Source: Liolophura sinensis (taxonomy: Eukaryota > Mollusca > Polyplacophora > Chitonida > Chitonidae). From it: DNA of 64,000 nt. The translations under genes were made by a program, and so were the position numbers. Of the stretch, positions 3,596-64,000 are shown in pieces; position 1 is the stretch's first letter, and each line of letters starts with the position of its first letter. Location: the NCBI RefSeq assembly GCF_032854445.1, contig NC_088301.1, forward strand, positions 45,619,187-45,683,186. The letters run 5' to 3'. The notes under the pieces were generated by a model, which worked only from the letters and a program-made list of their open reading frames with translations, had not been told where the DNA came from and made no database searches.

Positions 3596-3601
3596 TTTAT
3601 T
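3596..3601 (-). terminator. Candidate polyadenylation signal of gene A
   Basis: AATAAA on the minus strand, about 213 bases beyond the gene A stop codon at 3814-3816. It is placed by hexamer and position only. Confidence 0.35.
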
Positions 3602-3813: not shown

Positions 3814-6800
3814 CTAGGATTGGAAATCCTCCAGGGCTGCGACATCATCGCCTGGAATTCGGTCGTATTTGTTGCCTGTAAAACAACATAATGGCATTAA
3901 GAAAAGTGTCAAGTCAAAAAATAAAATATATAAATAAATAAAACATGGTCAAATAACATTCTCTGTAGATAAGGACAGTTAAAAAAATTCAGTAACGGCA
4001 TATAAATTTTAGTGAAAGAAATATTGCTGCCCGCAGAGGAAATGACGTAGTAAAGAGTAACCCATTGAACAGATGTCTTGTTGATTACTGTTAACAGCGT
4101 ACTGATGAAGTTTTCGGTAATTCAACGGCTGCCGGTTTATATTATGATCAGGAGTAAAGCACTGTCCTTTTGGCAGTTTAAAATTGCAAACTGTTGGCAT
4201 GGAATCCGTGCAAGGTGAAGTCACGGTGAACAGAGAGATTTGCATGTTATCAGATAGATCCATGATCGTGTTCACATGACAGAGCGAAATTTGCAAACAT
4301 GCCAATCAAATAAACTCATGTTCATATGTCAGTCCTATAATTTTCAGGAAAATAATGTACATGACGATATAGAAAATTCACCTTAAGAAGCAAAATTTCA
4401 CAATACATAAACCGTATTCAAAACTTTCCCATGTGTAACATATGTCATACTGCTGGAAAGTTAGTGGTTTCCAGCAGGTATACGAATGTCTGTTTCAATG
4501 CATAGATTGATCAGAGTAAGATTAAATGAGAAAGCACCAACGACAGCTTGTTGCCACCAAGACCTCAAGAACAATCAGAGAAGAAAAATGTGTCGAGTGA
4601 GATAACCTAATGTACATCGTTTATCACCATAAATGTTTGATTTATCTATTTATTCTTTTGATTGGTGTTTTACGCCGTCCTCAAGAATATTTCACTTATA
4701 CGATGGCGGCGAGTATTATGGTGGGAGGAAACCGTACAGGGAATGTGTGAAACACAAGACATCCGCAGGTTGCTGCCAGAGTGGATAGGAAGTCAGCATG
4801 AGCTGGACTTTAACTCACAGGGATCGCAATGGGTTGTTGAGCCACGCTGGCACACAAATCGCTATTCCACAAAGGCCACTGTTAAATGTTTGACGCTGCT
4901 CTTATTAAAACATATTTTTATCCTTTTTATCTAGTTGTTAATAAGAGACGATTGGGTTCGAGAGCAAATGGCTTGTGTATATCGGTTTGAAGCAATATCA
5001 TGACCATAAAAGCAGTCAGTCAAATTAACTTCATCCATAATAAAGTGTAGTGAACTGCTCAGCTGACGTAAACAACGCGACAAATCTCTTCCATCAGGCA
5101 TACCTTCGTCACATTTTGTCACTATTCAACTAATTTCAAAAGAATAGCAGTATGAACACAAGCTGTGAAAAGAACAAAGCAAGATCTTTCAGCTGATGCA
5201 TGCGTAACGTTTCTCAGGCTATATTCTTCTAATTACTCAATCACGATCTGCTCCTATGTTAAACATCTATAATGTCTTACCTGCATGCTCTTTCAGAACG
5301 CATGTGCCGTACCCAGGAGCCCTCTTCACTTCCTGTACATCATAGCATTCAGGATGGGGGTGACCCATGGCTACATCAGCAGCAGCTGTGGCGAAAGCCG
5401 TCATTCATGAATGTTACATGTCTTACGGATTACTTGTCTGACATATCGTTTAAAAATTATTTTCAGCGCTTTATTTAAATGAATATTGTAAATGTATATA
5501 AAAACAACAACATAACTTTAAAGTATGCAGGAAACAGATTAGGCGCGCTTACGTATCTGTAAATGCACAGACAAAAATCAACAAGGAGATGAATTTCTTT
5601 TGTACTTTGAAATGAATACGGTTCTTCTCAATAAGATATACGGACAAGTTTGGATGGAAGAAAATTCATATCGTACCCCAGAAGAAGCAGTCGTTATCCT
5701 TGTTGCAAGGCACGTCTCTGTGACACTCCTGGTTGTAGCACAGGGCTCTTCCATCGTGGTTGTTGCAGTCTTCCGAAATCACGCATTCACCCTCAGCCTG
5801 AAATGCAAGCGATCAGTTCATAAATCAATGTGTAAATAAAGTACATGTACCATCAATCATATAAGCCATTCATATCGGCATTTTAACCGCAAAAATTACT
5901 CTCTTAAGTTGCTGTCTGTCCGTCGCCATGTCTCGTAAAATTTTGGACATCCCATTTTTTAATAAAGGTCATTCACTTAACATGGGCCTGAGTAGGCCTT
6001 ATCCAGTATGCCCCAGCTATTTCGAAGTTGTGTTTACTAAAATAGGTGGTAGTGTATCAGTTCACGTGGCGATCAGGGCTAATCATTTTGACAATCACAA
6101 AATAATATCCTTTCACACTTGTAGGAGAATCTGACACATATATGCATCAGGTGGAATATAACTAAGCAACATGATTTATTGATTCGTTTGGGTGGTTTCT
6201 AAAAACCCCGCCTTTCTTGTCCTTACTCCATTATAGTACTGGAGTCACGTGACATGATGTTTTTGGTAAGTAGGCTACTACTTGGGCTTAAGAGTGAAAG
6301 ACTTACAGCATAGATGAGAGTAGCGACGACAGTGTAATCTGCAGTAAATGGTCAAACGTAACTAGTGAAATTGTCAACTGTAACCAGTAAATGGTCAAAC
6401 GTAAGCAGTGAAATGGTCAAATGTAACCAGTAAATGGTCAAGTGTAACCAGTGAAGCACGAATTCTTACTAGTTTATTCTAGATAGGATCGTATTCTAGG
6501 TGTTCTTCTAAACGCTTATAAATAGTGACAATTTTCTCGCCTGCCTAGATTCATGGCAGAATTAAGTAAAACAGTGTGGTGATGTTGCCATTTATTAGCT
6601 GCCTTCAACTGTCACACTCTCCTCACCAGTCTGGTTTTACTCTCTATGCATGCTGTAGTGCTCTTTGTTATTTTCTTCTCGCAGTGCCAGTGTGATTTCC
6701 TCAGTGTATATTTCCAGTGTGTGTAGTAAATCTAACAAAAATTGAATTTTATTTCTTATAGTGAAACCGCTAGAATTTAATATATCGGCTTTACAAGAGA

Positions 6801-6973
6801 AAATCTTTTACCAAGCAGAGCCAGGGAAAGATTGTCCTAGTTTGCTTTATCGCTTTCCATTTGAGTGCACACTACCCCAGTTTACATATGTGGCGAAAAA
6901 GCCAAATGACAAATATACTTACCATAGATGTGGCCACGAGGCCAAAAAGGCAGATGGCTACCAGAACCTTCAT
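3814..6973 (-). CDS. Gene A: secreted eight-cysteine protein, four exons
   Basis: I do not recognise the family. Coding exons on the minus strand are 6973-6923, 5797-5677, 5385-5281 and 3875-3814 (stop TAG). All introns are GT-AG, in phases 0, 1 and 1, and the product is 112 residues. Exon 1 is a signal peptide (MKVLVAICLFGLVATSM); cleavage after Ala18 would fit the -3/-1 rule. Mature cysteines are C22, C28, C37, C42, C48, C54, C71 and C86, spaced X5, X8, X4, X5, X5, X16, X14. Exon 2 ends in the motif NKDNDCFFW and exon 3 carries APGYGTC. The exon 4 tail contains RIPGDDVA. Gene B matches in exon number, intron phases, cysteine positions and most motifs, which strongly supports the model. The exon 2 donor (G|GTACGA) is weak; reading through it gives a stop three residues later. 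Intron 1 holds family T sequence and intron 3 holds a SINE. The product is probably an extracellular disulfide-rich peptide; its role is unknown. Confidence 0.85.
4640..4860 (-). repeat. tRNA-derived SINE (family R1) in intron 3 of gene A
   Basis: On the minus strand a decayed tRNA-like head (GTGGCTCA box A region, GAGTTAAAGTCC box B region) is followed by a body with CAGCTCATGCTGACTTCC and GCAACCTGCGGATGTC. It ends with AAGTGAAATATTCTTGAGGA and a TAAAACACCAATCAAAAG tail. The same body recurs at 42510-42745 and, as a fragment, at 24580-24655. I recall similar sequence as common in mollusc genomes, which is the main hint to the organism. Confidence 0.65.
6299..6665. repeat. Family T repeat copy with internal minisatellite
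   Basis: It begins with an AAAGACTTACAGCATA phrase shared with the copy at 38140. At 6346-6453 it expands into five units of about 21-22 bases around AAATGGTCAAACGTAACCAG. Near 6575-6660 the same family appears in the opposite orientation (TGTCACACT, CTGGTTTTACTCTCTATGC). The whole lies in intron 1 of gene A. No protein is encoded, so it looks like a non-autonomous element. Confidence 0.55.
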
Positions 6974-9184
6974 CCTGTCGCTGTTGAGTGTAGTGAGCTT
7001 CTCTCGCGAATGTCTGGTGCATCGGTCCGTTGGGCTTTTTTGTCTGTAATTAATTACATATCTACTAATCACAGGCCATTACTGTGTCGGGTCAGGCCAA
7101 CGAAATACCCGCTGTTGTCAAAGACACTACTGTCAATGAACGGTTAACATGTAATGAGTCATACTGTCAATTACATTGTCATGACCTTGGGGATACATCA
7201 CTGAGTATAAAAGTCCCTAAAACTACACCTTGTATCGCAGATGAATACTAAATATTACACGTTTATTTTAAGTATATGCATTTATCAGATAATTTTCTAT
7301 AACCTTTTTATACTGACATAGCTTTAAGTTTTACTATATTTTCCTTTTGTCATTTTATACTTATCGCTAGATCTTCTATGAGGTAAAACATAAGATACAT
7401 GTATAAAAATTTTCGATTCCGTTTTAGATATCCCCCGCACAGGGTGTTTCATACTGAAACAACATTTATGAAAACACCAAAGTTTTGCTCCCTTATGATG
7501 CACATGATAACATCGAGACTTGTCCAGTCATTGGGCCAGTGATATGGTTTTCTGTAAGAATAAATGGGTAGCAATTTTCTGCCAATCAGCCGATTATTTC
7601 GCTTTTCCATCAAACCATCGGCGCTGCTTTTGCCGCGGTTTTGTGATGTCTAGAATGACCTTGACTTTTCATTAACCTGTAGGTAATGGTGATATTTGTG
7701 GCAAACAAACTTGACATTTATATTCGTCAGCTGATGCATCTGGAAAACGTATACTTATCAAGCTGGCAAAAAATACAGACGCATCTTCGGACTTTAATGA
7801 TATTATGGGGATATCGAGTGTATTCCTGAGAAAAAAAGAACTTGAAACGAATAGAGGATGCAGCAGCTAATAGATACATACAATGCTGTTACCTTAAACA
7901 AGGCAAAATAATAGCTGGCTGATGTTGGTAGATGAATTATATTACAGCGTATCATATATACTTGCCGAAGGAATGTGTCTAAAAAAAACATCACTTCACA
8001 AGGTGCAAAGCGTCACTGTTTTCTTTTCTTTACAACGTTAAAACATAGTAGATTGCATTAGTTAACAGTTATACAGGTTGAAGAACAGGTTGTCCTTACA
8101 CAGAGAAGAGCCGCAGAAAAGATTCTGATTCTATGCTCGAGATTCAATGTGGTGTTTATCATCGTGTCTCCTTAACACGATATAGTATAATGCTACATGA
8201 CTTGAACGCCATGCGGAAGACAACGCCCTATCCTGTCACTGTACTATGACACTGGTTTTGGATGATTTTGACTTAACGTCTCTAAAGCAATATTGTAGCC
8301 CTGAAAACAGGGTTTTTAGGAATGATGCGGTTATGGCTTGAACGTCTCTCCCGCTTACTGTATACTCCCGTTTCTACTTTCGGCTACCTTAGCGTGGACA
8401 TATATAAATAATTAGTGGTCTCAGATTTATCATAAGCTTAATGTACCATTATCTATCTACCATCCTTTGTTGTGTTCATTATTTGTTCCATGTGGGTCTC
8501 CATTTAGCAGGGATAGGTATGATAATGTTTAAATTAGGACCCTCTAAGTTTCAATGAACGGACCAAATTATATTATTAGAATAGCAAATACATTGTAATT
8601 ACTAATACTAATACAAAACTACTATTAACATACTGTGCCACCTATAAATTACTTGAACCTCATCCGGTGGTTGAGCACGTTTTTATCTAATATCTCATAA
8701 AACTGCCCGTCGATAAATACCTGACCTCCAGTTTATCAACTGTCGTTGTCGTTAATATCATAAATAACTTACTAGACAAACAAATATTTGTCGAATTCCG
8801 ACGAAGTTTGAATTACCCGGAGATAACCGAGGGTCAGAGGGAATAATGATTATAGCATTATATACGAACACTTATAGTAAGGTCAAGGATAAAAAGTATA
8901 TCTGCAATTTTTGTTTCCACTCATAAGCATCACGCTGAACCTGACTGTTCAACAAATGAATTTGTAAATACTGTTGTGGACATTGATTAAAGTCATTTCG
9001 CCCAGAGGGTTTTAGTGATGCTCTACCAATATGCAACTTCCTATAAAGCTCTGTATTTTGTATTCACCAAACTTTATAACGTTAAATGACCAAGGATTCC
9101 TCTCACATCGATTGTATGATAAGAGAAATAAGTTTACTATACTGTTATAAAGATATTGTTAGCTAGTCATTTATGATTGGAAAT

Positions 9185-9204
9185 CCCCCCCCCCCCCCCC
9201 CCCC
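9185..9204. repeat. Homopolymer C-run, 20 bases
   Basis: Twenty uninterrupted cytosines followed by a C-rich tail to about 9221. The complementary strand is a G-run. Such tracts are prone to length error in sequencing. Confidence 0.95.
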
Positions 9205-9488
9205 AACACTCCCCCCCACCAGAAAGCCCTTCATATGAATTGGCATATGTATAGCTGCATATGAAATAGCGTATACTAAAAATCAACAATTTCAATCTAT
9301 ACGTCATAAACTTTCTGCTGAAACTTTAAGTCAATTCTTGGCTGTCTAACGCCTCCATTAATTGTTTTCTTATGCCAGCCATTATGCAACTTACAGTCAC
9401 GGCGTTTATACACCTTATATGTGCGGGGGGAGGATCTGTGGGGCTGTATACGTCGTTAGTATTTATAATTCCGGTGGGCTAGTGGTCG

Positions 9489-9492
<4 letters not shown>

Positions 9493-9555
<63 letters not shown>
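9493..9555. repeat. AT dinucleotide microsatellite
   Basis: About 63 bases of perfect alternating AT. Confidence 0.97.
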
Positions 9556-9556
<1 letters not shown>

Positions 9557-11095
9557 GACGCAGTTTTAATTAATCATGTACTAGGTTTATATGAACAATT
9601 GCAACAAATGCGAAACTAAGATACCTTTATGCATTTTCTTGCTTTATATAGCACAATGACGTGTATAAAATACAAATATGGACCTTTCCTTTCATAAACA
9701 TAAAATGTGATGGACTATACATACAGAATGGATCTCATTGGATATTATATACCTCCGACATCGTTATTATTTCTTCTCTTCGTTAAAATTCTATATATGG
9801 TTTTTAAAAAATGGTATGCTAATTTTATTGATGAAACTTGTTTATGGGAATTTCGATATTGTTTTACCGGTGACTTAGATATCATGCACTAACTATTTAT
9901 GGGAATGTTACAATGCATATATTTGTGCAAGGCTTAGTGTACACGAAGATGTGATGGATTTTATCTATCATCTTCTGGTTCGCTGCAATAATCTTATACT
10001 TAAATCAATGAGGCGTTCGAAAAAAGCTCTCGTGGTTTCCGGCTCCAGAATAAATCTAATTTGTAGAAATTCTTGAGCACAGCGTTAAACACTAATCCTT
10101 AAAATGAATCTGTATGTTTCGTTGTTTTCGAGTTTCTTGGAACCCCATTGCTTTCCAGAAGCTTCGTGACAGAGTCTGCTATATATGTACTTAGCACTTA
10201 GAACACATTATCAGTTACACGTATCAGCATACATTGCACATACAAGATTAAGTTAATGAGGAGCCGCAGCAATTCACTCTGTTCAGTGTTATCTGCATGA
10301 GCCAATATATTTCTGCTCATCCTGAATACAGTTATTTGTGAAACCCTTTTTGAAAATCACTACAACCTATCAAACTTACAAGCATTAGTGAGTTTCCTAG
10401 GAAATGTTACTTTTGAATTACAAGAGTACATGTACAAACAATCCATAAATGCAGTGGAAATTAGGTCTGTTCGTCATCTCTTCAGTGAGATGGACCGAAT
10501 TTTCGTTACAAGAGCCGCAGCATCAAGGGGAAGTAAGCCTACAGAGCAGTTGTCAAACTTTCCACCATATCAACACACTACCAAAGGTGTAGTAAATTTG
10601 CTTTTTTTTATGACGTTGTCTCCAATTAGTTGCACTACTTCACTGGAATAAGAGACCAGACCTGATGATCCATCTAAGTACTTTGTAGGGACACTAATTT
10701 GTGGTCTATTCCCTTGCTCAGCGCCAAATTAGGGTCAAATGTGGTAACTCCATAATCAAATACTTTTCTGATACGATGAGCGGTAAGTTTGAAGGTGGCG
10801 GAAACCGGAGTGACCGCTTATTGTCTCAAAGGCCACTCGAACAGAGGCCAACTACATAAATACACAAATAAGCCAATATCATAATGTTACATTCCCTTTT
10901 AACAAAGAACATTGAGCAGACCATTTAGAGTGAGCTATGTAGCACGAAATTAAGTTTTTGGCAGTGTTTGTTGAGGGAAAAACAAAATATAATACTTCAA
11001 CAGAAATTAATCTCTGCACAAAGGAAACTATCCTGTGATAGCAGTATTAGACTAACAGTCTCTTCAGAACTAGAACTGTGTTTACTTATATCTGT

Positions 11096-12073
11096 TTAGT
11101 CATACATGTGCAAACTTTTAGTTGGTCTACTGGCACGACTAGCTCTGTTAATCACAACTGGTGAGGTAATGGACTGTCTCGGAGCTGTAATAGTCATTTT
11201 AAGTTCCCAACTATCACCGGGATGTTTTGCTCGTGACATCGGATCAGGCTGAGAGGTGCATGATGGTTGCTGAATTAAGGGGTAATCACACAGGTCAGGT
11301 ACTCTGTGTTGTGACGCCTCTTTGCGGGTTTGTTCTCTTGTTTCATGGCAATGGGCCTTGAATGTCGACAAGCGAGGAGGACGTTTGTTTCTGCGGTATT
11401 TATTCTAGGATAGCCTATGGTGATGAAGAACAGTAACAGGCTGCCACTGTCTAGAACCTGGTAGAGGTGACATGCGCACGGGGTCACCTGGTAACAATAC
11501 TGTAAGGTCGTCACTGCGGTGTTTGTTGTAATACTCCTGCTCTCTCCTTGTTTAAGGGGCGTTTGACTACAGAGATACAACACTCGGCAATTTATTTCTC
11601 GGCCTACGGTACATGGAAGCTGTGCTGAGGAAAGCCCACAACTTTCTAGCGGGGCTGTTCGTTAGTGTCTTTGCATTTAACTTCACAAGCGTCTGACTAT
11701 CTATACAGCTCGTTCAGCCTCACCATTTGACTGCGGGTAGTTTGGTGATGAAGATGTGTGCGAATATCGTACTGAACACAAAAGTAAATTGTTTTGATGA
11801 AAATTAGGGACCATTATCAGTCCTTAAGGTTTTAGGTATTCCTTGGCGACACACTTCTGACTTAACAGAGGTAGCAGTGACATTTGTACTGAGAACTGTC
11901 AGTTTGTCAACCTCTATAATGTAGTTGACTGTAATCACGGAATTGTTGTCTTCCCAGTGGAAAATGTCAGACGCGATCTTCATACCAGGGGAAATCTTGA
12001 GATGTTGTCGGACGTAGTGTTTCCTTTGGTTGTTTGTTTTGGACATTGTTACACTCATGACAGTCACTAACAA
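11096..12073 (-). pseudogene. Integrase remnant
   Basis: The segment 12073-11804 includes a core-domain-like stretch with SDIFHWEDNNSVITVNYI and ends in KTLRTDNGP, carrying two of the three expected acidic positions. The region containing the third is disrupted (about 11800-11585). The tail at 11371-11096 ends in RASRPTKSLHMYD, which resembles the basic end of gypsy integrases. Confidence 0.7.
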
Positions 12074-12145
12074 AATTTTCTACTTGTTGGGCCATTCCAG
12101 GAAAGTAAACAGCTTCTCTGGCACGCAGGCGACACTTAGTGATAT

Positions 12146-12813
12146 CTACGGGGGCTCAAGTCTTTGGGAGAGCATATCAGCTCTCATACTAGGAGATACC
12201 ACTCTTCTAAGACTCTTATACACGATGCCATCAAGGACAGACAGCTCGTCCCTAATGTTCCAGTACTGTCGAATAGAGTGCAGGGTTTCTGGTTTGGTGT
12301 CTGGCCAACCTTTCAAGGTCATAGAATGTAGTTCATTTGCAGTACACTTCTGAAACTGAGTGTATCTAGCTGGTGTCACAGCTATGTAATGGATCATATT
12401 GATCAACACTGGTGTAATGTCTGGCTCAGTATCTGGGAGATTTGTACGGCTTAACGCATTACCAATGGGAATCACCTTCCTAGACTTGAACTGGACAGTT
12501 AAATCGTACAGTTGTAAACGTAGCATCATTGCTTGTAGTCTCATTGGGGAGGACTGAAGCGGTTTAGAGAAGATCGCCTGCAAACGCTTGTGGTCACCGC
12601 CCACTGTTACTGGCTTTCCAAATATACAATAACGAAACTTCTTGCATGAGCGAGAGTCTTTTCTATCTGTGCATATCTCTTCTCCGTGATTGTCAGTGCA
12701 CGAGAGGTGTATGGGCAGCAACCTTGAAGCAAAAAATCTCCTACTGCATAGCTACTCGTATCACAGTGTATTGTTACCTCTTTATTTGAGTCATGCTTGG
12801 CGCACTGCGGCAC
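12146..12813 (-). pseudogene. RNase H and connection region remnant
   Basis: VTIHCDTSSYAVGDFLLQG marks the first RNase H acidic site. After a frame change come TEKRYAQIEKTLAHA and a long open segment with GKPVTVGGDHKRLQAIF and LYDLTVQF, a classic gypsy order. The open segment at 12721-12146 is the longest intact piece of the element. Confidence 0.82.
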
Positions 12814-12967
12814 AAATCTTTCAGCTTCTCAAGAATGGTTTGTTGTGCACCATTCCAGTAGAGGTTAACCTCAATTACGTCTCTCAGTGGAGCGTCAGCT
12901 TCACTGAGATTTGAAACGAACTTGCTTGGATATTGTACAGTCCAAGAAACTGGCGGATCCCTTCTTT

Positions 12968-13825
12968 TTACTTTGGCACAGGCATTTCTCGCAAGGCACG
13001 CACTTTGTCAGGATCAGGTTTTAGGTCATCTTTGGTAACAATATGACCGGCATACTTCACAGCAGGTAGCTTCACTTGACGTTTGTCAAAGTTAAAACCC
13101 AGATTGTACTCTGTATCACGGTTTACAACGGCTTTGATGATTTTGTCATCTTCATCGTCCACCCCTCCTATCAGGATGTCATCTATCAGTGCTCTTGCAC
13201 TTTAGATGCCTTCAAGCATGTTGTCCATGTTTTGGAGCCGACTTAATAATAAACGGGGTCGGAGCCACCTACATCTGACTATGGGGTTATTATTGAATTG
13301 AATAGTATTCACGTCGTATCGCCTTGTTCAGGTCCATCGGATCAATGCAAATCCGGACTTTGTCAGTCTGCGGGCTCTATGACTTCAGCTATATGACCTG
13401 AACTCTCCATCTCTTTCAGCTTTTCCATTATCTTACCAGTCAGTTCTTTAGACTGACGCCTTGCATCATACACTACTGGGGGACACTAGGTTCAATTTTG
13501 AGGGAACAAGTTCCAGGTAGAGTAGGTGTAGTCAGTTTCAGCTCTGGATATCTATCTGTTTCATATCTGACATTTTGTACGCGTTCAATAAGGCCCAAGT
13601 CACTACTAGCCTGACCAGACAACCACGGTTGCTGGTTTACATACATTGAACATCTAGAAACTTATTTTTGTTGCATGTGGGAAGTGTGACACGCACTTCT
13701 ACTTTTATTGGGTGGCGTGTATACGACTGAAACTTCCTGTCTGCAGGTAGTACTGATTGCTTAATGATCATGGACTAGAACATACTTTATGGTATGAGTG
13801 ACTGAGTAGCACCTGTATCTATCTG
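12968..13825 (-). pseudogene. Protease and reverse transcriptase remnant
   Basis: The protease motif IDTGATQSLIP is at about 13825-13787. RT fragments follow: KVRICIDP at about 13380-13340, a LIDDILIGG box at about 13200-13165, and a thumb-like segment ending KPDPDKVRALREMPVPK near 12968. In-frame stops and shifts separate the pieces. The tyrosine normally preceding x-DD is leucine here. Confidence 0.78.
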
Positions 13826-13973
13826 CATGGTCAGTGTTTGTGATACTACGTGTATTTCTTCTGTCCAGTCTATGGTAATATTGTCAGACACAATGTTCAT
13901 TAAATGTGTAAAGTCTTCATCTGATGAACTGACCTCTTGCACGACATTCGAGCGATTTTTTTTACGAAAAGCT

Positions 13974-14689
13974 TTACTGAACAGCAGGACACTTTCTGTG
14001 TGACTTTTCATAACCACAACTGGAGCACATTTTCATAGAGTTTGTCTGTTTCCCTCTCTGTTTTCTGTAATCGCCCTGTTTCTTCTGCTGACTTCTGTTA
14101 ACAACCTTGTTTAACCTATGTTGCTCCTTCGCCGCACCAGACACAGCATTAATACTTGGATCTTCATCAGCAGTCATTATTTTGAGACTGTTTTGGAAGG
14201 TTTCATAGCTCTGGCCTATCTTGGCCATCTTTTCTATCTCATCATCTTTTCTAGACATCTCTCATACACAGCAGTATTACATGCGCCTATAACAATGGCG
14301 TCACGCAGCATACGCTCAGAATCACTATAACCAGAGTCTTTCTCGAGCAATCTCAGGTCAGTGACAAGGTTGTCAAACTTTTCTCCGTGTCGATGACGAC
14401 GTCTCTGGAAGTTCACAGCTGCTCGGATTTCATTACACTTTGGTGCCACGTACTGTCTGTATTTATTATATACTCCAGCCAGAGTGTCATTCCCTGCGGG
14501 TGTATCACCAACTGCTGGGGTCCATGTGGGAGTGTTATAGATTTCTCTGCCTTTATCTCCAATAATTGTGATTAAGTAGTTCAATTTTACTTTTTCACTT
14601 TTACTTGACAGGGCTTCATTAAAAGTGAACTCACAGTGCTGTCTGAAGCGTTTCCAGTCCTTATCTAAATCGGCGGCCTGCCAGTTCAT
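13974..14689 (-). pseudogene. gag remnant of the gypsy element
   Basis: Two overlapping open segments in different frames (14689-14234 and 14258-13974) cover a gag-like protein beginning MNWQAADLDKDWKRFRQHCE and ending in a cysteine/histidine knuckle. That start and the downstream knuckle are typical of gypsy gags in invertebrates. The frame change near 14240-14258 breaks the protein. Confidence 0.75.
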
Positions 14690-14699
14690 TCATACTATG

Positions 14700-15460
14700 C
14701 TTGCTACTGCATGAGTGACTGTGCCATGGCTTAACACAGATTTCAGCGTTCAGTTTCAGGAAGCACAACCTAAATGTCTGTGACATTCACTGTTAGACAG
14801 TTTTTCACAAACAGATCTACATCAAAATCAGTGGTGTGACATTTAACATGAGTTAACATGGTGTTGTTGTTGTAAGCTTGTACGTGATCAGTACACTAAC
14901 ACACAGTAGGCCTATACGTCATCTGCGTTTGGTGAGCGATTACTTACAACGGCAGGACATGTGGGGATTTGTTTGTAGAATAATATCAAGCACAACTTCT
15001 GACACAACGTAACGTGATAACTGGACCATATTAATGAGACAAACACGATGACATACGTTGACGAGCACGCCGGTTGATATGTGCATTTACTATCGTAAAG
15101 TAATGTCGCCAATGTCGTAAGTGACATGCAGTGTATCAGTACATGTTACACCCGCCACGCAAAACTTGTCAAAAGTCAAAACAAAGCTCCACATCATAGC
15201 ACTGAGGAAGTAAGTCACGCTGGATGAAATAAAGGTATAATCTATGACAGACATAGAGGTGGCAGAGTTTACCGTAGCCATGGTGCTAGGTCGAACAACC
15301 CGCTGGTACTGAGCAATCTACTAGACAGCAACAGCCAAAAGGTACACGCCGCAACCTGATACATGCGCGCAACAAGTGCCTAGCGAAATAGGCAATATGT
15401 AACCGATGTCATAATATAGGACACTATGATGTTTGTTGTTTTACAAAGAACATAGACAGT
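14700..15460. other. Spacer between the two retroelement fragments
   Basis: If the minus-strand element kept a 5' LTR it should lie here. I could not match this stretch to any part of 10400-11090, so no LTR is called. Nothing else is recognisable. Confidence 0.4.
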
Positions 15461-16254
15461 GTGCCCCAGCAAACAAGTGTGGAAACTCTTGATAAGAAGC
15501 AGGAATATTTTCTAGGAGCGGTGCATAATACTGATTTGTCTGAAGCAGTATGTTTTTTTAACTTGAAATGGACCGGCAAATCTGTCCGCTTCAACATTTA
15601 TTCCGGAGTCGATATGACAATAATGACTGAACAGACCTACATATCTCTGCAAACCAAAAACTGGAATAAACCGAGTCCAATCCAAAGAGCCCAGGTGGAA
15701 CAGGGAAACTATTAGACAGTGTGCTACTGGCGTAAAGCTTTACACTAAAGCGGTTTAGCTTGAGCTGTTTGTTATTCAGTGTGCATCAAACAATCTACTA
15801 TGTAGAGACTCAGCCGTGCTCATGGGCCTTATCCAGAGGATATACGACAATGTCTGTAGTGACATTGGTCTAATGTCATGTTCACCAGTGAAAATTGCAC
15901 TTCGTGATGATGCAATTCCGAACGCCATACATGCACCTAGACGGGTAGCCATTCCGTTTTTACCGAAAATCGAAAGAGCCACGGAACCGAGCGAATGGTG
16001 CCAGTTGTTAAGCCCAACGGATTGTTTACGTGGACTTAAGACAATTAAACAAAAGTGTGAAGAGAGAATGTTTTGTATTGTCTACTGTCGACGACATATT
16101 GTATCAGATGTTCGATTCCAAGTATTTTTCCAAATTGGGCGCTGCATCTGGATTTTACCATATTCCACCGGACGAAGAGAACGCCAGTCTCACAACTTTT
16201 TATTGCACCGTTTGGCAGATATCGGTACATAAGGCGGTACATCATGAACGTTAG
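15461..16254 (+). mobile_element. Second gypsy fragment, protease and RT, opposite strand
   Basis: A protease-like segment at 15461-15715 carries FNIYSGVDMTIM, where the catalytic aspartate position reads tyrosine, so it is dead. A linker at 15816-16020 contains PRRVAIPFLPKIE and EPSEWCQLL. An RT start in another frame at 16030-16254 reads MDLRQLNKSVKRE, then FSKLGAASGFYHIP. The order and motifs are typical of gypsy pol, from a different family than the 11-14.7 kb element and in the opposite orientation. It stops before the catalytic Y-x-DD box. Confidence 0.85.
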
Positions 16255-16467
16255 TTTAATAGGATTGAATAAGCCTGATGCACAAGGATTAATGACTATT
16301 TCAAGAGATTATATGTTTGATATACCTTACAGTTTAAGAGAAGGGAGATGTTATACAAGTGACGATATTCTGTAAGAATTGTGTTTGAGTAGGTTATGTG
16401 TTGTGAAACAGAGTATAATGTCATGGCGGTATTGAGTGAGTGAGTGATGACGAAATAAACTTTAGAA

Positions 16468-16735
16468 TGCATGTAATGTGCCTCCTTGATGCAGGACGGA
16501 TTTCCACCGCTCTTTTACTGTTTCAGGCAAGTATGGGAAGTAAGCCGCCCCGCCAGAGCCATTATACTGATACGGGTCAACCTTGCACTATCCCCTTAAC
16601 GCTGAACACCAAACCAGGTTACAAACCAAGTTACAACTTTCTCTTTTAAGGTCTTAGGTGTGACTCGACCCAGGATTGACACTGCATTTACCTCTCCCGT
16701 AGCGGACGCTCTACCAACTGTACTATCGGGGCCGG
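16468..16735 (-). repeat. tRNA-derived SINE S1, minus copy
   Basis: On the minus strand it starts GGCCCCGATAGTACAGTTGG with box A ACAGTTGGTAGAGCG and box B GGGTCGAGTC, then ACCTAAGACCTTAAAAGAGA and a central part with CAGTATAATGGCTC. It closes with AAAGAGCGGTGGAAATCCGT. The plus copy at 40231-40505 matches along its whole length. Confidence 0.85.
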
Positions 16736-17764
16736 ACCCTATGGCGGTAATGGAATAAATCCTAAATTCATCTGGCCAGCGAAGTCAGTCATACCTTACC
16801 CATAGATACACGCGACTGTCTTGATGATCTATTTATCATATATGTATTTATTCAACGAAGTCTACAAGAATGAAATGACAAACTTACAAATTCAACCATG
16901 GCGCCGAAGTGCCTGATCAAGTCACTCGTAAACCCGCAAACAAACATAGTTCATAATAAATATTAAACTACTCAATGTAAAGTAAATGCAGATATTAAAA
17001 CAACTGGAACTAATTCGAAAATATTCCTAAATTTTCTGCTCGATTATGCCTGACGAACAACCATAGTTTTAAACAATATTACAATATAACTGCGCCAAAC
17101 GGATCCCCAGAAACAGTGCTGACGTCACCGTTGATGTTCCGTGGAAATGTCACTAATTGTGTGATTCACAGCAACAACATAAACAAATCAAATGTCAAAC
17201 TGGAACATGACTGAACAAACTTGAATAAAAAATACGATTACTGTGGTTCTCAACAACGCTGAAGATTCATCTTGGAAAGAGTTCGTAGGATTGTCGGTGA
17301 CATTCCATTGCTTGCATGTTTGTCATTGTTGCACTTCGCAAACCTATTTCAGGGGATTCCCCAGTAGAGGGCGCAAGCAAGGTCAGGGTTTTCAAAGTAG
17401 CCCGAGAATGAGTGTTGACGTCATCATCTGATACGAAACGTTTATATCAAAGACAGGTAGGTATATGATAAAGGCTTATATCATGATTTTTCTGCCGACA
17501 CTGCAAGTAAGGTGCATTTGTGATCGTGGTATGCCTTAACATGAAAGAATCGTTAAACGAGACACGCATACCCTTTACTGACACATTTGTTCGTAAAAGT
17601 ATACAGCAAAAACACCTGCGTTTAGATTAACAAACTACTGTCTAGTAACGTGTTGATTGCGCATTTCCTCAACCTGTTTGTCAGACAGGACACAGGCTGG
17701 TGGCTTCCATCGCTGTTTGATCTTTATACCCCATGAATAAACCGGGCTCGAGGGTCATAATATA

Positions 17765-17905
17765 ATAAAAGACATCAGCACAGACATTAAAACCAAGGCA
17801 GTGGCGACAGTGTGATATTCTGCAAATGGTCACACGTATAAGCGACTTTATCTTAGTAATAGGGTTTTACATAAACTGTTTATGCACATGCTTAAATAGT
17901 AGCAA
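17765..17905. repeat. Family T repeat copy
   Basis: It shares GCGACAGTGTGATA, GCAAATGGTCACACGTA, TTTTACATAAACTGTT and a final AGTAGCAAC with the copies at 38140 and 43305. It is non-coding. Confidence 0.55.
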
Positions 17906-17916
17906 CGTTCAATACA

Positions 17917-17934
17917 CCCCCCCCCCCCCCCCCC
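17917..17934. repeat. Homopolymer C-run, 18 bases
   Basis: Eighteen cytosines, followed by a C-rich segment to about 17955. It directly abuts the end of a family T copy. Confidence 0.95.
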
Positions 17935-18990
17935 TCCACCGCCACCTCCACGTCGACAGCTTAGTACCATGGCCTAAGTAGACTTTACTGGGCGTTACTA
18001 GTACTCAAAATTGGCTGATTTAAGCTTAGATATAGCTAAATTTAGAACTGTTTTGTGCTGAAGAGTTATAACCAAATATATTCAATTTTTTATTTTAGCG
18101 CAAAGAATAACTATAATGTGGTCAAACCTAAGAGCTGAGGAATATAGCCTCAAGTTAAGACTATATAAGTTAAACGCGTTAAGCTGGAGACAGCTTTGTG
18201 ATCCCGGTTTGTTATCACAGTTGTGTAAGTGTAATATTTTCGAGAACGCAGTTAAACTTCAATCAAAAAACTTCATTTCCACCTTTTCTTATGGAGCAAT
18301 TATAATGGATGTAACCTAAGAACCGCTGTATTATAAGCAAATTACTCCAAGGAAATAAGACGTATCTTGGCTTAAGCCTCTCTACGGAGCCGTAAAGGTG
18401 ACATGGCTAGAAAGTTTCAATTATGTTTATGTTTATCAAAATTTCGTTCGCATGACTTAGTAAAGATCTCGAGATCACGAGAGAAATACATAATTATATC
18501 GTGAGACATACACAATAATAACACACGAGATAACTGTGTATTTCTATTAGTCGGTTATCCCGTCAGCACGACTTAACTGAAAAGAATATAACTGAAAACT
18601 TAGAAAGTTGTGTTGATATTTTTTCTATTTACAGTCTTCTTTCTGAAGTTGTCACTTTTACGTCTCTGTGCCTCTCGATTAATTGATCATATACTAAATA
18701 AATACTAAATAAGTTGCTACTAAAACAGTAGCAACTTGCACCCGTCATTTCCGTCATTTCCATGACAACATACCTCACCATTGTAAAGGTACGTGACGTG
18801 GTGTAGCGACAGCTTTGTAAAGCCAACTCATTACTTTACTTACATTCGCGTGTCTGGCGTAAAGGCAATCAAGTATATCTCATTTGGATACTCGAAGGGT
18901 CCGTTTGAAAAGTTTGCAAGATGTGAAAAAAGAAAAACAAATAAATAAAATCAAGCAACAAAATTCGGTTCCACATATTGATTTGAATTA

Positions 18991-18996
18991 TTTATT
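18991..18996 (-). terminator. Candidate polyadenylation signal of gene B
   Basis: AATAAA on the minus strand, about 107 bases past the gene B stop codon at 19103-19105. Confidence 0.45.
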
Positions 18997-19102
18997 ACGA
19001 ACTTCTGCACAAGTCGTGATCACCATTGAAGCATACTGTCTATCTTATTATTGTTTTACATGTAGTTGAAAATCCCATTGTTGAAGATTTTGGAACAGCT
19101 TT

Positions 19103-21069
19103 CTATTGCGTAGGATCGTCCTCCTTGATATTCGCGACATCCTCACCGGGTATTCTGTTGAACAGGTGATCTAAAATATGTGAAAACGTGCATACATATA
19201 TACTTCCGCACCACACATATTTACATAAACCTTCTATTTATATGTTTCCAGTTTAAACGATAATGGTCCTGTTGTCGTGTTGCTTAGTATCGTTACTTTT
19301 AATAAGACTCGCCGTAGATTAATGATATGTCTTCGGAATCAACTTTTCGCCGACTGCAATGCATATGGTAATTTATTAACAAAATGGATAAACAGAACAG
19401 TGTATAGAAGGTTTGAAGTGATAACAGTGGCAAATGCATATGGAGATTTAATATGGAGACTTAAAGAATGCTTAGGTAAAATATATATCTTTGATTGTTT
19501 ATTACAGTCTTGCTTCAGTAACATCACTGAAACTAACTGACCACACCGTTGGCATATATGTGTGCATGTCCCTTACCTGCGAATTCGACGAGCAGGCAGG
19601 TTCCGTATCCTGGTTCCCTCTGGACGTGAGGGAAATCATAACATCTGGGGTGAGGGAAATTGTAAGCAACATCCGCAGCACCTACAAAAAAAACCCTTTC
19701 CAATTTACCAATGGATCTATTTTCGTTTTTTTGAGGACTTCGTACAGCTGTCTAAATGGGAGTTTTATATATTCATGGTTTCTTTGGTGTGCGGAGTTTT
19801 CCCTGTCAACGCTACAGTTGGCTACTGTTAACTTGGATCTCATTACAATATACCAGGTAGGTTCAAACCAAATTCTTGGTGCCTGTTGCTGCCTCGCGTG
19901 GTGCTCAACAGGTTGGATTGGTTGGTCCGGTAGTATAATATGACTGGGCGGAGTGTCATGTCTGGCGTCTGCGACGTGATAATTCAGTGGCGCCAGAAGT
20001 TTGGTGGCATGGACTTGCCCTCTCACAATAAGACACAGTATATGCACACACACCTAATGAATCATCGAGGTAATATGACTGCAAAATTTTAAAGTATGGC
20101 GTCCAAAGGCACATCATATTTCAACTAACAAACTTCGAAAAGAATCATAGACACTATGCTAAATCGATGAATTCAAAGTATTGGTGTTAACAGCCAAACC
20201 ATACCCCAGAAGAAACAGTCGTTGTCCTTGTTGCACGGTATGTCTTTGTGGCACTCTTGGTTGTAGCATACTTCTCGACCTTGATTATTCTTGCAATCCG
20301 CAGATATAATGCATTTTTTCTGCAAAAATAAAAAGAAAAGAACCTCATGTGAATGAACAGCTATCAATAGCACATCTACAGAAACGACATAGAACAATTT
20401 GAAAATTAGAACACAATTCGGTTGAAAGATGGAAGCAGGGAATCTAAAATGTTGTGCACGATTGTTAGAGTGTTGGGTGACATTTAGGTAATGAAAGCTC
20501 CATCTCTTTATGCGATAATGAAACTATCTTTAAAATTATAGACACATAAAGCAGAGAATAGGATGAAGCTCAAAGCTAACTCTCAATGCTTATAATGGCG
20601 ATTTTATTCAAAACGATGGACATAAAGCCCACTTACCTTAGGTTAAGTGGAATTAGGCATGAACGAATAAGGACCACATATTCCATATTTGGTCAAGGGA
20701 TAATTATACAGGCGTATACTTATTGTAAATTTAAGAGACTTCAAGTAAAATATGCTAGTTGCACTTTTATGATTTGATGTAATTGTCTTGCGACAATGAT
20801 TTCATCTGTCACACAACACACATAAAATCAAACAAATGTAACAAGGCGAGACATAACACGTCAGAAATATGCCATATTTTCGGTAAATTTTTAACTAAAC
20901 ACAGATGGGTAATTTACAACGCTGACTTTGAAGCTATATATTGTGGTAAAGGCAGGGTGACAGGAAATCGCTGTCGTTTTTGTACAGATACAAGACTGTT
21001 AGAGAAACTTACCGCGCTGGCAATAGCACACAGAATACCAACAAGACACAACTGGATATAAACCTTCAT
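19103..21069 (-). CDS. Gene B: secreted eight-cysteine protein, paralogue of gene A
   Basis: The family is unrecognised. Coding exons on the minus strand are 21069-21013, 20319-20205, 19681-19577 and 19170-19103 (stop TAG). Introns are GT-AG in phases 0, 1 and 1, and the product is 114 residues. Exon 1 is a 19-residue signal peptide (MKVYIQLCLVGILCAIASA) with an AxA cleavage site. Mature cysteines are C22, C28, C37, C42, C48, C54, C71 and C86, exactly as in gene A. From C22 through the FFW motif, 27 of 36 residues are identical to gene A; the exon 3-encoded part matches at 22 of 36 (hand count). The exon 4 tail has RIPGEDVA. The exon 2 donor (G|GTATGG) is weak, and read-through would stop after about ten residues. 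A TATA box lies 54-61 bases upstream of the ATG. Intron 2 contains SINE sequence. It is likely an extracellular disulfide-rich peptide. It could be a defence, signalling, matrix or secretion component; the sequence does not decide. Confidence 0.88.
19840..20010 (+). repeat. SINE S2 fragment in intron 2 of gene B
   Basis: It contains GGTTGGTCCGGTAGTATAAT, ATGACTGGGCGGAGTGTCAT and GATAATTCAGTGGCGCC, matching the copy at 39505-39720. The middle (TATAATATGACTGGG) resembles the central part of SINE S1, suggesting a shared central domain. Confidence 0.65.
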
Positions 21070-21122: not shown

Positions 21123-21130
21123 TTTATATA
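21123..21130 (-). promoter_or_regulatory. TATA box of gene B
   Basis: TATATAAA on the minus strand. With the usual 25-30 base spacing, transcription would start near 21095-21100, leaving a short leader of about 25-30 bases before the ATG at 21069. Confidence 0.65.
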
Positions 21131-34198: not shown

Positions 34199-35373
34199 AA
34201 ATTGTAGTATTGGTAACTATTCGTGTTCTATATTCCCATATCTGTTAGCTCGATGAATATACACGCCATTAAATTGTAGTAATGGAAAAAGGACGCCAGA
34301 AATTCTTAACGCCGATGATTACAATAATTGTTAACTTCATGTGAGACTCTTATGCACTGTATACTCTTGACTGATTAAGTATGCAATCAACAATTCGTAC
34401 CAATGACTGATTTCATTAGATAATGCCCTGGATATTTGCCCTATATAGCTATAATATCTTATATAATATATAGCTATAATATCTTATAGCTATAGTCTCG
34501 ACTAACATGTTATACATAGATGTTGTATGATAATATGATTAAAATTGAGATGCCGTCCTCTATGACTTTTCTTCTCATACACTTCTGAACAACAGATCCA
34601 ATGATCAAAAAATTTGAATATGAATACATGTGTATGTGCATGGCCTTTTTCTATGGTACCAACATAGAATTTTTTTAAAGTATGCAACGTATCTGTAAAG
34701 CCTTATTCAGTTCTGTACAGTTACATGTAGGAACAAATAGAATATTCCATTAAATCTAGCAAATTGATTTTTTAAAGTATAGGCAAGAAATTGTAGTATT
34801 GGTAACTATTCGTGTTCTATATTCCCATATCTGTTAGCTCGATGAATATACACGCCATTAAATTGTAGTAATGGAAAAAGGACGCCAGAAATTCTTAACG
34901 CCGATGATTACAATAATTGTTAACTTCATGTGAGACTCTTATGCACTGTATACTCTTGACTGATTAAGTATGCAATCAACAATTCGTACCAATGACTGAT
35001 TTCATTAGATAATGCCCTGGATATTTGCCCTATATAGCTATAATATCTTATATAATATATAGCTATAATATCTTATAGCTATAGTCTCGACTAACATGTT
35101 ATACATAGATGTTGTATGATAATATGATTAAAATTGAGATGCCGTCCTCTATGACTTTTCTTCTCATACACTTCTGAACAACAGATCCAATGATCAAAAA
35201 ATTTGAATATGAATACATGTGTATGTGCATGGCCTTTTTCTATGGTACCAACATAGAATTTTTTTAAAGTATGCAACGTATCTGTAAAGCCTTATTCAGT
35301 TCTGTACAGTTACATGTAGGAACAAATAGAATATTCCATTAAATCTAGCAAATTGATTTTTTAAAGTATAGGC
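34199..35373. repeat. Perfect tandem duplication, 589-base period
   Basis: Positions 34199-34784 recur at 34788-35373 with a constant offset of 589 and no difference I could see. Three bases (AAG) separate the copies. The unit is AT-rich and non-coding, and includes nested TATAGCTATAATATCTTATA motifs. Identity this high means either a very recent duplication or an assembly artefact. Confidence 0.95.
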
Positions 35374-38139: not shown

Positions 38140-38372
38140 AGACTTACAGCATATAGAGAGTAAAACGAGAGCAGAGACGGCATTGTGATGATTGGCAAAT
38201 GGTCACACGTAACTGGTGAAATACGACCTCTTGTCAATGTTCCTGAGTTAGGGTCTTATTTTAACTGTTCATGTAAAGACTTAAGTAGTAACCCCATAAC
38301 TTCAGCAAAATTAGGTAAGCAAAAATCACTGGTCTATAATTACTCTAATGCTCTGTCATCACATTTAACATA
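38140..38372. repeat. Family T copy, the most complete
   Basis: It runs from GACTTACAGCATATAGAGAG through GGCAAATGGTCACACGTAAC, CGACCTCTTGTCAATGTTCC and TTTTAACTGTTCATGTAAAG to a tail with ATAATTACTCTAATGCTCTG and TCATCACATTTAACATA. About 230 bases, no coding capacity. Confidence 0.55.
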
Positions 38373-42509: not shown

Positions 42510-42745
42510 CACATGTTTATTAATTTATCTGGATCATGTTTTAGGCCGTACTTGAGAATATTTCACTTATACGACGGCAGTTAAAACTACAGTGGAAGGA
42601 AACCCTGCACGGTGGATACCGACGACAATCCGCAGGTTGCTGCCGACCTACAGCTGTCGAGGAAGCCAGCATGAGCTGGTCTTAAACTCACAGCGAGAGG
42701 ATCATGGTCCATTGTAACGCGATGGCCACGAAGGCCCTCTTCGTG
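42510..42745 (-). repeat. tRNA-derived SINE R1
   Basis: Minus strand: GTGAGTTTAAGACCAGCTCA, CATGCTGGCTTCC, CGGCAGCAACCTGCGGATTG, AAGTGAAATATTCTCAAGTA, then a CCTAAAACATGATCC tail. It matches the copy at 4640-4860. Confidence 0.65.
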
Positions 42746-50669: not shown

Positions 50670-51203
50670 GTAATGTATATTACTGTCATTTTAAATGATA
50701 ATGTGTGTAAAATATTATTTTTAAAAAATCATTAAAAAAAAGTTACTGTTAATATTGACAAACATGCATTTTGCTTTATATTCTAGCTTTTCATTTGAAT
50801 TATGTTATAATTGTATATCAAGATCAGGTTTTTAGTTCAAAACAATTGTATTCAATAGATAAGGTTCTCAACCACTTTATTACCTTTAAAAAAGAGATTT
50901 TCTAGAACATGTGTATTTTAAATCCAGGTAAATTTATTTCATGCTTTAAAATTGGATGTTTCTCATATAAACAGATTTTAGGTAAAACAATTAATTATTT
51001 GCACAAGCTAGTTGATTAAAAAGCAAGGTACAGATATGACAACTAACTGAAACCAGCTACCAGTATTTTATAAGGAAGAAATTATGTGAGCTACAGTAAT
51101 AGGAACGTAAAAAGAATTAATTTAGCTGACACACTTGGAGAAATTAAAAAAATTATGTATAGTTTTTAAATTAAATGAATTCTTATTTCTTCTATTTACA
51201 GAC

Positions 51204-52763
51204 ATGATTATGACGCCAGAAACATCTATGGGTGTGGAGAAATCTATGCCAGAATCTTCAACAACTCCGACCAGGAAGAGAGCTTCCCCGGAAGACGGTG
51301 ATTCGCCCAATTCAGAGAAAGCCGGTAAAGTCAAACTGGCTTTCTCTATCGACAGTATAATTGGGAATACAGCAAAGAAACAGAAAGTGAGTGAAGAGCA
51401 CAGCCCAGAAGTACCCAGAGTATCTAGGACCCATCGTTCTGTTGACCTCAACAACTACAAAAATTCAGGGTTTATATCATACCCCAAATCCGGACTTCTA
51501 TATCCCAAATTAGATGGAAAGGACCCTTCTCTTGCGGAGGGTCTGGGAGCCTCTGGCCGTGACAACTGGGACGTCTATCTTCCCTATCTGCACCCCGCCT
51601 TCCTCATGGGCCGGGTCAACCTGCTAGACTACAATTCCCAACTCGGCTTACTCAGGCAACATGTCCATCCCTTGTATCCAACTGCAGGAACTTTCTGGCT
51701 GCAAAATCGCTCTTTGGCCGGCCAGCTAAAATTCCCTTGCCCCACGGGTGAGCTTTCTACCAGAGGATTAGACCTTTCCCTCACCCAGCACAGAGCATCA
51801 AACAAAGATACGAAATCACAGACCTTCACCAACCAGCCTGAAAACAGCACTGGTGATTCGGACAGTCAGTCGCCGAAAAAGTTGATCCCGGACAATTTTC
51901 GGGCAGGTGTTGCTGGGAAGAAGGCAAGTCCCGACTCGGTGGCACTCCAGAAAGAGGATGACAGCCAGGAAAATGTTGACTGTGACTCTTTGAACAAGAA
52001 CAAAAAAATAGGCACGAAACCACCAAAGACATTCACGTGTCCGGAGTGTGGTAAAGTGTTCAATGCCCATTACAATTTGACCCGCCATATGCCTGTTCAT
52101 ACTGGAGCTAGACCGTTCGTGTGTAAAATTTGTGGAAAGGGTTTTCGCCAGGCAAGCACCCTGTGTCGACACAAAATTATTCACACGTCAGAAAAACCCC
52201 ACAAATGTCAGACGTGTGGGAAATGCTTCAACCGAAGCTCTACACTGAACACTCATATGCGAATCCACGCCGGCTACAAACCGTTTGTATGCGAATTCTG
52301 CGGCAAGGGCTTTCACCAGAAAGGTAACTACAAAAATCACCGACTGACTCACAGCACAGAAAAACAGTACAAGTGTAACATATGTAACAAGGCCTTTCAC
52401 CAGATTTACAATCTCACCTTTCATATGCATACTCATAACGAGAAAAAACCATTCACCTGTCAGGTTTGCGGGAAGGGATTTTGTCGGAACTTTGATTTAA
52501 AGAAACACATGAGAAAGTTGCATGACGGCTCTTCCGTTTCCCCAACATCCTCTCCCACCTCTGATACAAACTTGAACTCGAGTCAAAACTTTAGTCCAAA
52601 TTCCCGGCTGTTTGCCGTTGGCCCGTCCACCGGACCAACTGGCTTTTTGAACCGTCCATCTCTGTTAGCTCAGAGTTCGATTCAGTGTCAACGAAGCCTT
52701 TTTGCTCCTTACATGTTACACAACCCGGGCTCATTTTTACAGAAAGTCCAGCCTCTGATATGA
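51204..52763 (+). CDS. Fezf: FEZ family zinc finger protein (Fezf)
   Basis: A nuclear C2H2 transcriptional repressor of the Fezf1/Fezf2/earmuff family, known in other animals for forebrain patterning and neuronal identity. The 519-residue protein starts at the first ATG after the splice acceptor at 51201; open sequence upstream of it is intronic. An Eh1 Groucho-recruiting motif ([10 protein letters not shown]) is at residues 45-54. A Ser/Pro-rich linker follows, then six C2H2 fingers: C279-H299, C307-H327, C335-H355, C363-H383, C391-H411 and C419-H440. Fingers 1-5 have HX3H spacing and finger 6 has HX4H. Linkers and finger signatures such as [20 protein letters not shown] and [20 protein letters not shown] are near-invariant in the family. 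A Ser/Asn-rich tail ends the protein. All coding sequence is in one exon. Length is close to that of other family members. Identification is secure; Fezf1 versus Fezf2 is a vertebrate distinction and does not apply. Confidence 0.97.
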
Positions 52764-63717: not shown

Positions 63718-64000
63718 CACTTAACTGAAGTAAGAACTTAATGAGCACGATTACATTGTGTTAGTTGACTGAAGTCAGAACTTAATGAGCGCGATTACAT
63801 TGTGTTAGTTCACTGAAATCAGAACTTAATGAACACGATTACATTGTGTTAGTTGACTGAAGTAAGAACTTCATGAGCACGATTACACTATGCGACTTGA
63901 CTGAAGTAAGAACTTAATGAGCACGATTACATTGTGTTACTTGACTGAAGTCTGAACTTAATGAGCACGATTACATTGTGTTACTTGACTGAAATCAGAA
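63718..64000. repeat. 44-base minisatellite, running off the window
   Basis: The repeated unit is built on GACTGAAGTAAGAACTTAAT, then GAGCACGATTACATTGTGTT. The phrase GAACTTAATG recurs at a constant 44-base step. About six and a half units are visible with a few substitutions each. The array continues past position 64000. Confidence 0.95.

Follow-up and report, generated by a model that had tools for sequence, protein, structure and literature searches.

The question raised by this locus in the chiton Liolophura sinensis is whether two sets of short exons, both lying in a 64-kb stretch of DNA (64,000 nucleotides; hereafter the window), represent genuine genes and, if so, whether they are related, whether they are under selection, and what kind of protein they encode. 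The genome was published as that of Liolophura japonica (PMC11068029) and was renamed L. sinensis in a correction (PMC12441733).

Two four-exon genes, here termed A and B, were rebuilt from the window, and the models are correct to the base. Gene A lies on the minus strand at positions 6973-3814 and has an open frame of 112 aa; gene B, also on the minus strand (21069-19103), has an open frame of 114 aa. All six introns are of the GT...AG type, with phases 0, 1, 1 in each gene, and the orientation, exon count, and phases that the initial annotation had assigned to both were all recovered. Exon 1 of gene A (6923-6973, donor GTAAGTAT) carries the ATG and a signal-peptide-like leader of 17 aa, while its counterpart in gene B (21013-21069, donor GTAAGTTT) carries the ATG and a similar leader of 19 aa. 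Exon 2 (5677-5797 in A, 20205-20319 in B) encodes cysteines 1-6, and exon 3 (5281-5385 in A, 19577-19681 in B), which is symmetrical (1-1) and 105 nt long in both genes, encodes cysteines 7-8; these two exons were identified both in the models and by tblastn. Exon 4 (3814-3875 in A, 19103-19170 in B; rebuilt models) encodes a tail with RIPGDDVA in A and RIPGEDVA in B and ends in the stop codon TAG. All of these exons, and the motifs found by scanning around them, are on the minus strand. An AATAAA is present 213 nt past the stop of gene A (3596-3601) and 107 nt past that of gene B (18991-18996). A TATA-box-like TATATAAA lies 61 nt upstream of the gene B ATG (21123-21130), with a second TATA-like match 178 nt upstream; no TATA-like box was detected up to 200 nt upstream of the gene A ATG.

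Repeated DNA occurs within and around the genes. Intron 1 of gene A holds a 43-nt tandem repeat (6342-6455) that partly resembles the stretches 17782-17838 and 38155-38235 and is perhaps a dispersed element. Intron 3 of gene A holds a dispersed repeat (4647-4741; 74% identity with 42518-42612) that we take to resemble a widespread mollusc SINE. Between the two genes, the minus strand at 11804-14689 probably consists of decayed retroelement pieces; of the four frames scanned there, one scored 22.1 bits (E 1.7e-4) for an RNase H-like match, below the cut-off of 24.8, and the other three gave none at E <= 0.01. Elsewhere in the window, two direct repeats of 300 nt (34199-34498 and 34788-35087) are 100% identical and 589 nt apart, and may be a recent duplication, a pair of element ends, or an assembly artefact. 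A 44-nt minisatellite of at least 6.4 copies (63719-64000) runs to the end of the window. The plus strand at 51126-52763 contains a 545-aa open frame with C2H2 zinc fingers (five Pfam zf-C2H2 stretches pass individually), the arrangement of which presumably resembles that of FEZF transcription factors. Rfam and tRNA scans of the 64-kb window found nothing.

The relatedness of the two genes is evident from several comparisons. When A was searched against B by tblastn within the window, exon 2 (E 5.6e-21) and exon 3 (E 4.3e-14) were matched; exon 4 (E 0.13) and exon 1 (E 2.5) were not significant alone. A blastn comparison of the two gene regions returned a single significant piece of 67 nt, with 88% identity, in exon 2. 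The alignment score of the coding sequences (106) was reached by none of 100 shuffles, the highest of which scored 24, and the scores of introns 1, 2, and 3 were reached by 53, 4, and 65 of 100 shuffles, respectively. The likeness of intron 2 is thus borderline; the coding parts are conserved and the introns hardly or not at all. With single bases shuffled within 200-nt blocks, the exact six-cysteine spacing of exon 2, which occurs twice in six frames of 264 kb (the window plus 100 kb on each side), occurred in none of 30 shuffles, and a relaxed version of the spacing, also found twice in 264 kb, had a shuffle mean of 0.03. A looser scan of the same 264 kb for C-x4-D-C followed by two further cysteines returned three places, namely the two genes and an unrelated stretch at 61989 on the plus strand.

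The mature parts of the proteins are identical at 56 of 88 residues, distributed as 27 of 38 in exon 2, 22 of 35 in exon 3, and 7 of 15 in exon 4; the leaders share 6 of 19. Differences among the 88 mature codons number 24, 17, and 50 at codon positions 1, 2, and 3, and the same codon is used at 26 of the 56 identical residues. By the Nei-Gojobori method, mature pN is 0.231 and pS 0.798 (saturated), a ratio of 0.29 (bootstrap 0.20-0.41) and not the dN/dS near 1 that, according to the initial annotation, would have counted against functional genes. A maximum likelihood estimate gave dN 0.26 and dS 6.5, a saturated value that makes the corresponding dN/dS ratio undependable; across estimates dN is 0.26-0.28. 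The leader is weakly constrained (pN 0.487, pS 0.652). The excess of third-position differences and the saturated silent sites beside a low dN thus indicate an old pair under purifying selection, and the proposed paralogy is borne out by the matched exons and phases, the alignment of the coding sequences, and the codon-position bias. That A and B are chance open frames or dead copies is exceedingly improbable: the exons are short, and two of the four (1 and 4) fall short of significance alone, but the four exon pairs match in phase and keep their frames open, and the silent sites are saturated while the protein is conserved. This explanation was rejected on the selection statistics and on the shuffles of the coding sequence and of the cysteine spacing. 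A and B are an old tandem pair, neither chance frames nor dead copies.

Selection is not confined to the cysteines. The description of the pair as having constrained spacing with divergent intervening residues could not be upheld, as A and B agree at 48 of the 80 mature residues other than cysteines and the block CYNQECH-D-PCNKDNDCFFW is nearly invariant between them. With 60% of non-cysteine residues shared, all eight cysteines would be shared by chance with a probability of about 0.6^8, or 1.7%, which is suggestive but not overwhelming. The high identity outside the cysteines thus indicates selection on the whole protein.

Both proteins have their mature cysteines at residues 22, 28, 37, 42, 48, 54, 71, and 86, with the common spacing C-x5-C-x8-C-x4-C-x5-C-x5-C-x16-C-x14-C. 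The identical residue numbers on which the initial annotation placed weight are accurate, but exon 1 of gene A is two codons shorter and its exon 2 two codons longer than those of gene B; since these differences, which flank intron 1, cancel, the shared numbering is partly luck, and only the spacing between cysteines is meaningful. Additional cysteines are present in the leaders (residue 8 in A, residues 8 and 14 in B), both of which read by eye as hydrophobic. The -3/-1 rule for signal-peptide cleavage agrees with a signal exon that ends exactly at the intron in gene B, but in gene A the likeliest cleavage falls one residue into exon 2. The mature proteins would be about 93-95 aa long, with masses of 10.4 and 10.9 kDa, and are acidic (pI 4.6 and 5.0), an argument against a cationic antimicrobial peptide. 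Structure prediction for exon 2 gave models of low confidence both for A folded alone (mean pLDDT 51) and for B. When B was folded with A as an aligned row, the best of five models reached a pLDDT of 61 (the other four 46-50), and in it EVCYN and KDIPC may form a hairpin; a Foldseek search with this better model had no match in the PDB at E <= 10.

Searches of family libraries did not assign the proteins. No Pfam-A model reached its gathering cut-off for A, B, or their exon pieces. The best Pfam match for A was Nodulin_late (E 0.021-0.023 depending on the stretch, 15.6 bits against a cut-off of 30.4), and that for the whole of B was Tachystatin_B (E 1.8; for the exon 2 piece of B, E 0.039, 14.3 bits against a cut-off of 25). 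The exon 3-4 piece of gene A matched two RA-domain models below cut-off (E 0.17 and 0.2), and Dumpy_DPY (E 0.075) and ACI44 (E 0.4) were likewise below cut-off. NCBIfam, a prokaryote library, gave no match at E <= 10, nor did a sequence search of the PDB with gene A alone, in which the query carried one extra residue. A profile of A and B had seven PDB matches at E <= 10, from complement C9 (E 0.34) as the best to a carboxypeptidase inhibitor (E 2.3) as the last, none of which is credible. The statement that the spacing fits no nameable family thus stands, no Pfam, NCBIfam, or PDB sequence match having been accepted. No description of the pair was found in the open-access literature, although it may be listed among the annotated genes of the published assembly, and five peptide fragments of A and B had no mention in open-access text. 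Judged by their residues, A and B form an eight-cysteine family that is recognised by none of the libraries searched.

It was also considered whether A and B could be very diverged members of the known CxxxxDC-type repeats (DUF7107, EB, or dickkopf-N like), a reading that seems rather doubtful. A C-x4-D-C motif opens both halves of both proteins (CVISEDC and CNKDNDC in A, CIISADC and CNKDNDC in B), which hints that an old internal repeat, too short to test, may underlie them. Moreover, DUF7107 (PF23416) weakly matches residues 21-54 of both proteins as well as both exon 2 pieces. These matches have E-values of 0.19-7.7, however, and score at best 12.5 bits against a curated cut-off of 24.6; the model itself, run against the whole genome, found nothing at E <= 1, A and B included. 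That Nodulin_late and Tachystatin_B score as well as or better than DUF7107 suggests noise arising from cysteine spacing. Nodulin_late, Tachystatin_B, ACI44, Dumpy_DPY, and DUF7107, all below cut-off, were rejected as the family of A and B. DUF7107 had no mention in open-access literature text.

Further copies were sought in the same genome and beyond it. A genome-wide protein search (609,464,459 bases in 632 contigs; a query with one extra residue, and only the best candidates scored) yielded five exon matches at E <= 1e-3, all within A and B, a result with which more distant paralogues are compatible. In the window and 100 kb on each side (264 kb), no third copy was detected at E <= 1; the only match other than the exons of A and B was a stretch at chance level (11230-11307, E 0.71). 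Viral and prokaryote contigs contained 32 and 30 pattern matches, respectively, and no relative at E <= 1e-3, as expected for an animal gene.

It is probable that A and B are a selected, secreted, and disulfide-bonded protein pair; selection is observed, and secretion and disulfide bonding are predicted from the residues. The leader would be cleaved as a signal peptide and a small acidic protein exported. Four disulfides may then form in a six-cysteine module encoded by exon 2 and a two-cysteine module encoded by exon 3, with a short tail at the end; the even number of cysteines in each of these exons suggests pairing within exons. Additionally, because exon 3 is symmetrical and contributes two cysteines, skipping it in frame could give a six-cysteine isoform. 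Outside the cell, the mature protein might serve as a small binder, most likely protease-inhibitor-like or in host defence.

A role in inhibition or defence can be offered as a tentative first guess, prompted by analogy. The closest functional analogue that could be documented is the I84 family of protease inhibitors, whose members are described as small (7.1-9.3 kDa), acidic (pI 4.98-6.11), and tandemly duplicated, their exon 2 encoding cysteines 1-6 (PMC9198434). A and B resemble the molluscan members in that description (cvSI-1 and scSI-1 to scSI-14) in being small, acidic, tandemly duplicated, and (as predicted here) secreted, and also in having a first exon that does not extend beyond the signal peptide (a predicted one in A and B), an exon 2 that encodes cysteines 1-6, and C-x5-C and C-x4-C steps (PMC9198434). 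Unlike I84 inhibitors as described there (PMC9198434), which have 12 cysteines with CTC/CxC, three exons with two introns, and masses of 7.1-9.3 kDa, A and B have eight mature cysteines with no CxC, four exons with phases 0, 1, 1, and mature masses of 10.4-10.9 kDa. Since cysteines, exons, and size all differ, the inhibitor reading is one of analogy only. Membership of A and B in I84, assessed from the published description of cysteines and exons, was rejected, as two defining features (12 cysteines with CxC, and three exons) are absent.

Other extracellular roles have to be weighed against this one. A structural or mineral-associated protein of the shell plate, girdle, radula, or mucus matrix, in which acidic residues would bind calcium and cysteines would cross-link, is unlikely. 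Acidic residues do outnumber basic ones in the mature proteins (18 to 8 in A and 16 to 10 in B), as such a role would lead one to expect, but no repeats or low-complexity stretches are visible, and the conserved CYNQECH-D-PCNKDNDCFFW block looks more like a folded binding surface. Further, among 22 cusp-specific proteins described from the Cryptochiton radula, the one without known similarity is a Gly/Ser-rich repeat protein, unlike A and B (PMC6351634). The title of a paper cited in connection with matrix proteins presents the Crepidula repertoire as dominated by conserved genes.

A signalling protein or prohormone, either a cysteine-rich peptide hormone or a water-borne pheromone, is quite unlikely as well. 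Domains of the dickkopf, prokineticin, and colipase type are secreted, as is predicted here for A and B, and begin with C-x5-C; their remaining spacing differs from that of A and B. No Pfam match to any of the three types was obtained in A or B, and it is against a signalling role that the spacing is unlike that of prokineticin or dickkopf. A convertase-like layout is also lacking, each protein having a single dibasic site, which in B lies where the mature part begins. Consistent with signalling, the proteins are small and probably secreted, only two paralogues were found at the search depth used, and molluscs are described as having cysteine-bearing secreted peptides such as prokineticins and dickkopfs, with eight cysteines in the CRD-1 of protostome dickkopf (PMC6425005).

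The verdict reached is that A and B are a real, selected, and old tandem pair of genes for a small eight-cysteine protein of predicted secreted type in a chiton. More speculatively, they may define a disulfide domain family that has not been described before and is limited to chitons or their nearest relatives; in it, a six-cysteine exon would have been joined to a one-disulfide 1-1 exon to make a new kind of extracellular inhibitor or binder. Molluscs commonly have small, cysteine-rich secreted proteins with no known relatives, and one more such protein is by itself no surprise. Annotation easily overlooks genes that have neither a long exon nor a known domain; A and B demonstrate that such genes can be recognised from sequence alone. 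If orthologues occur across chitons, the family would offer a way into the features peculiar to this old lineage of molluscs.
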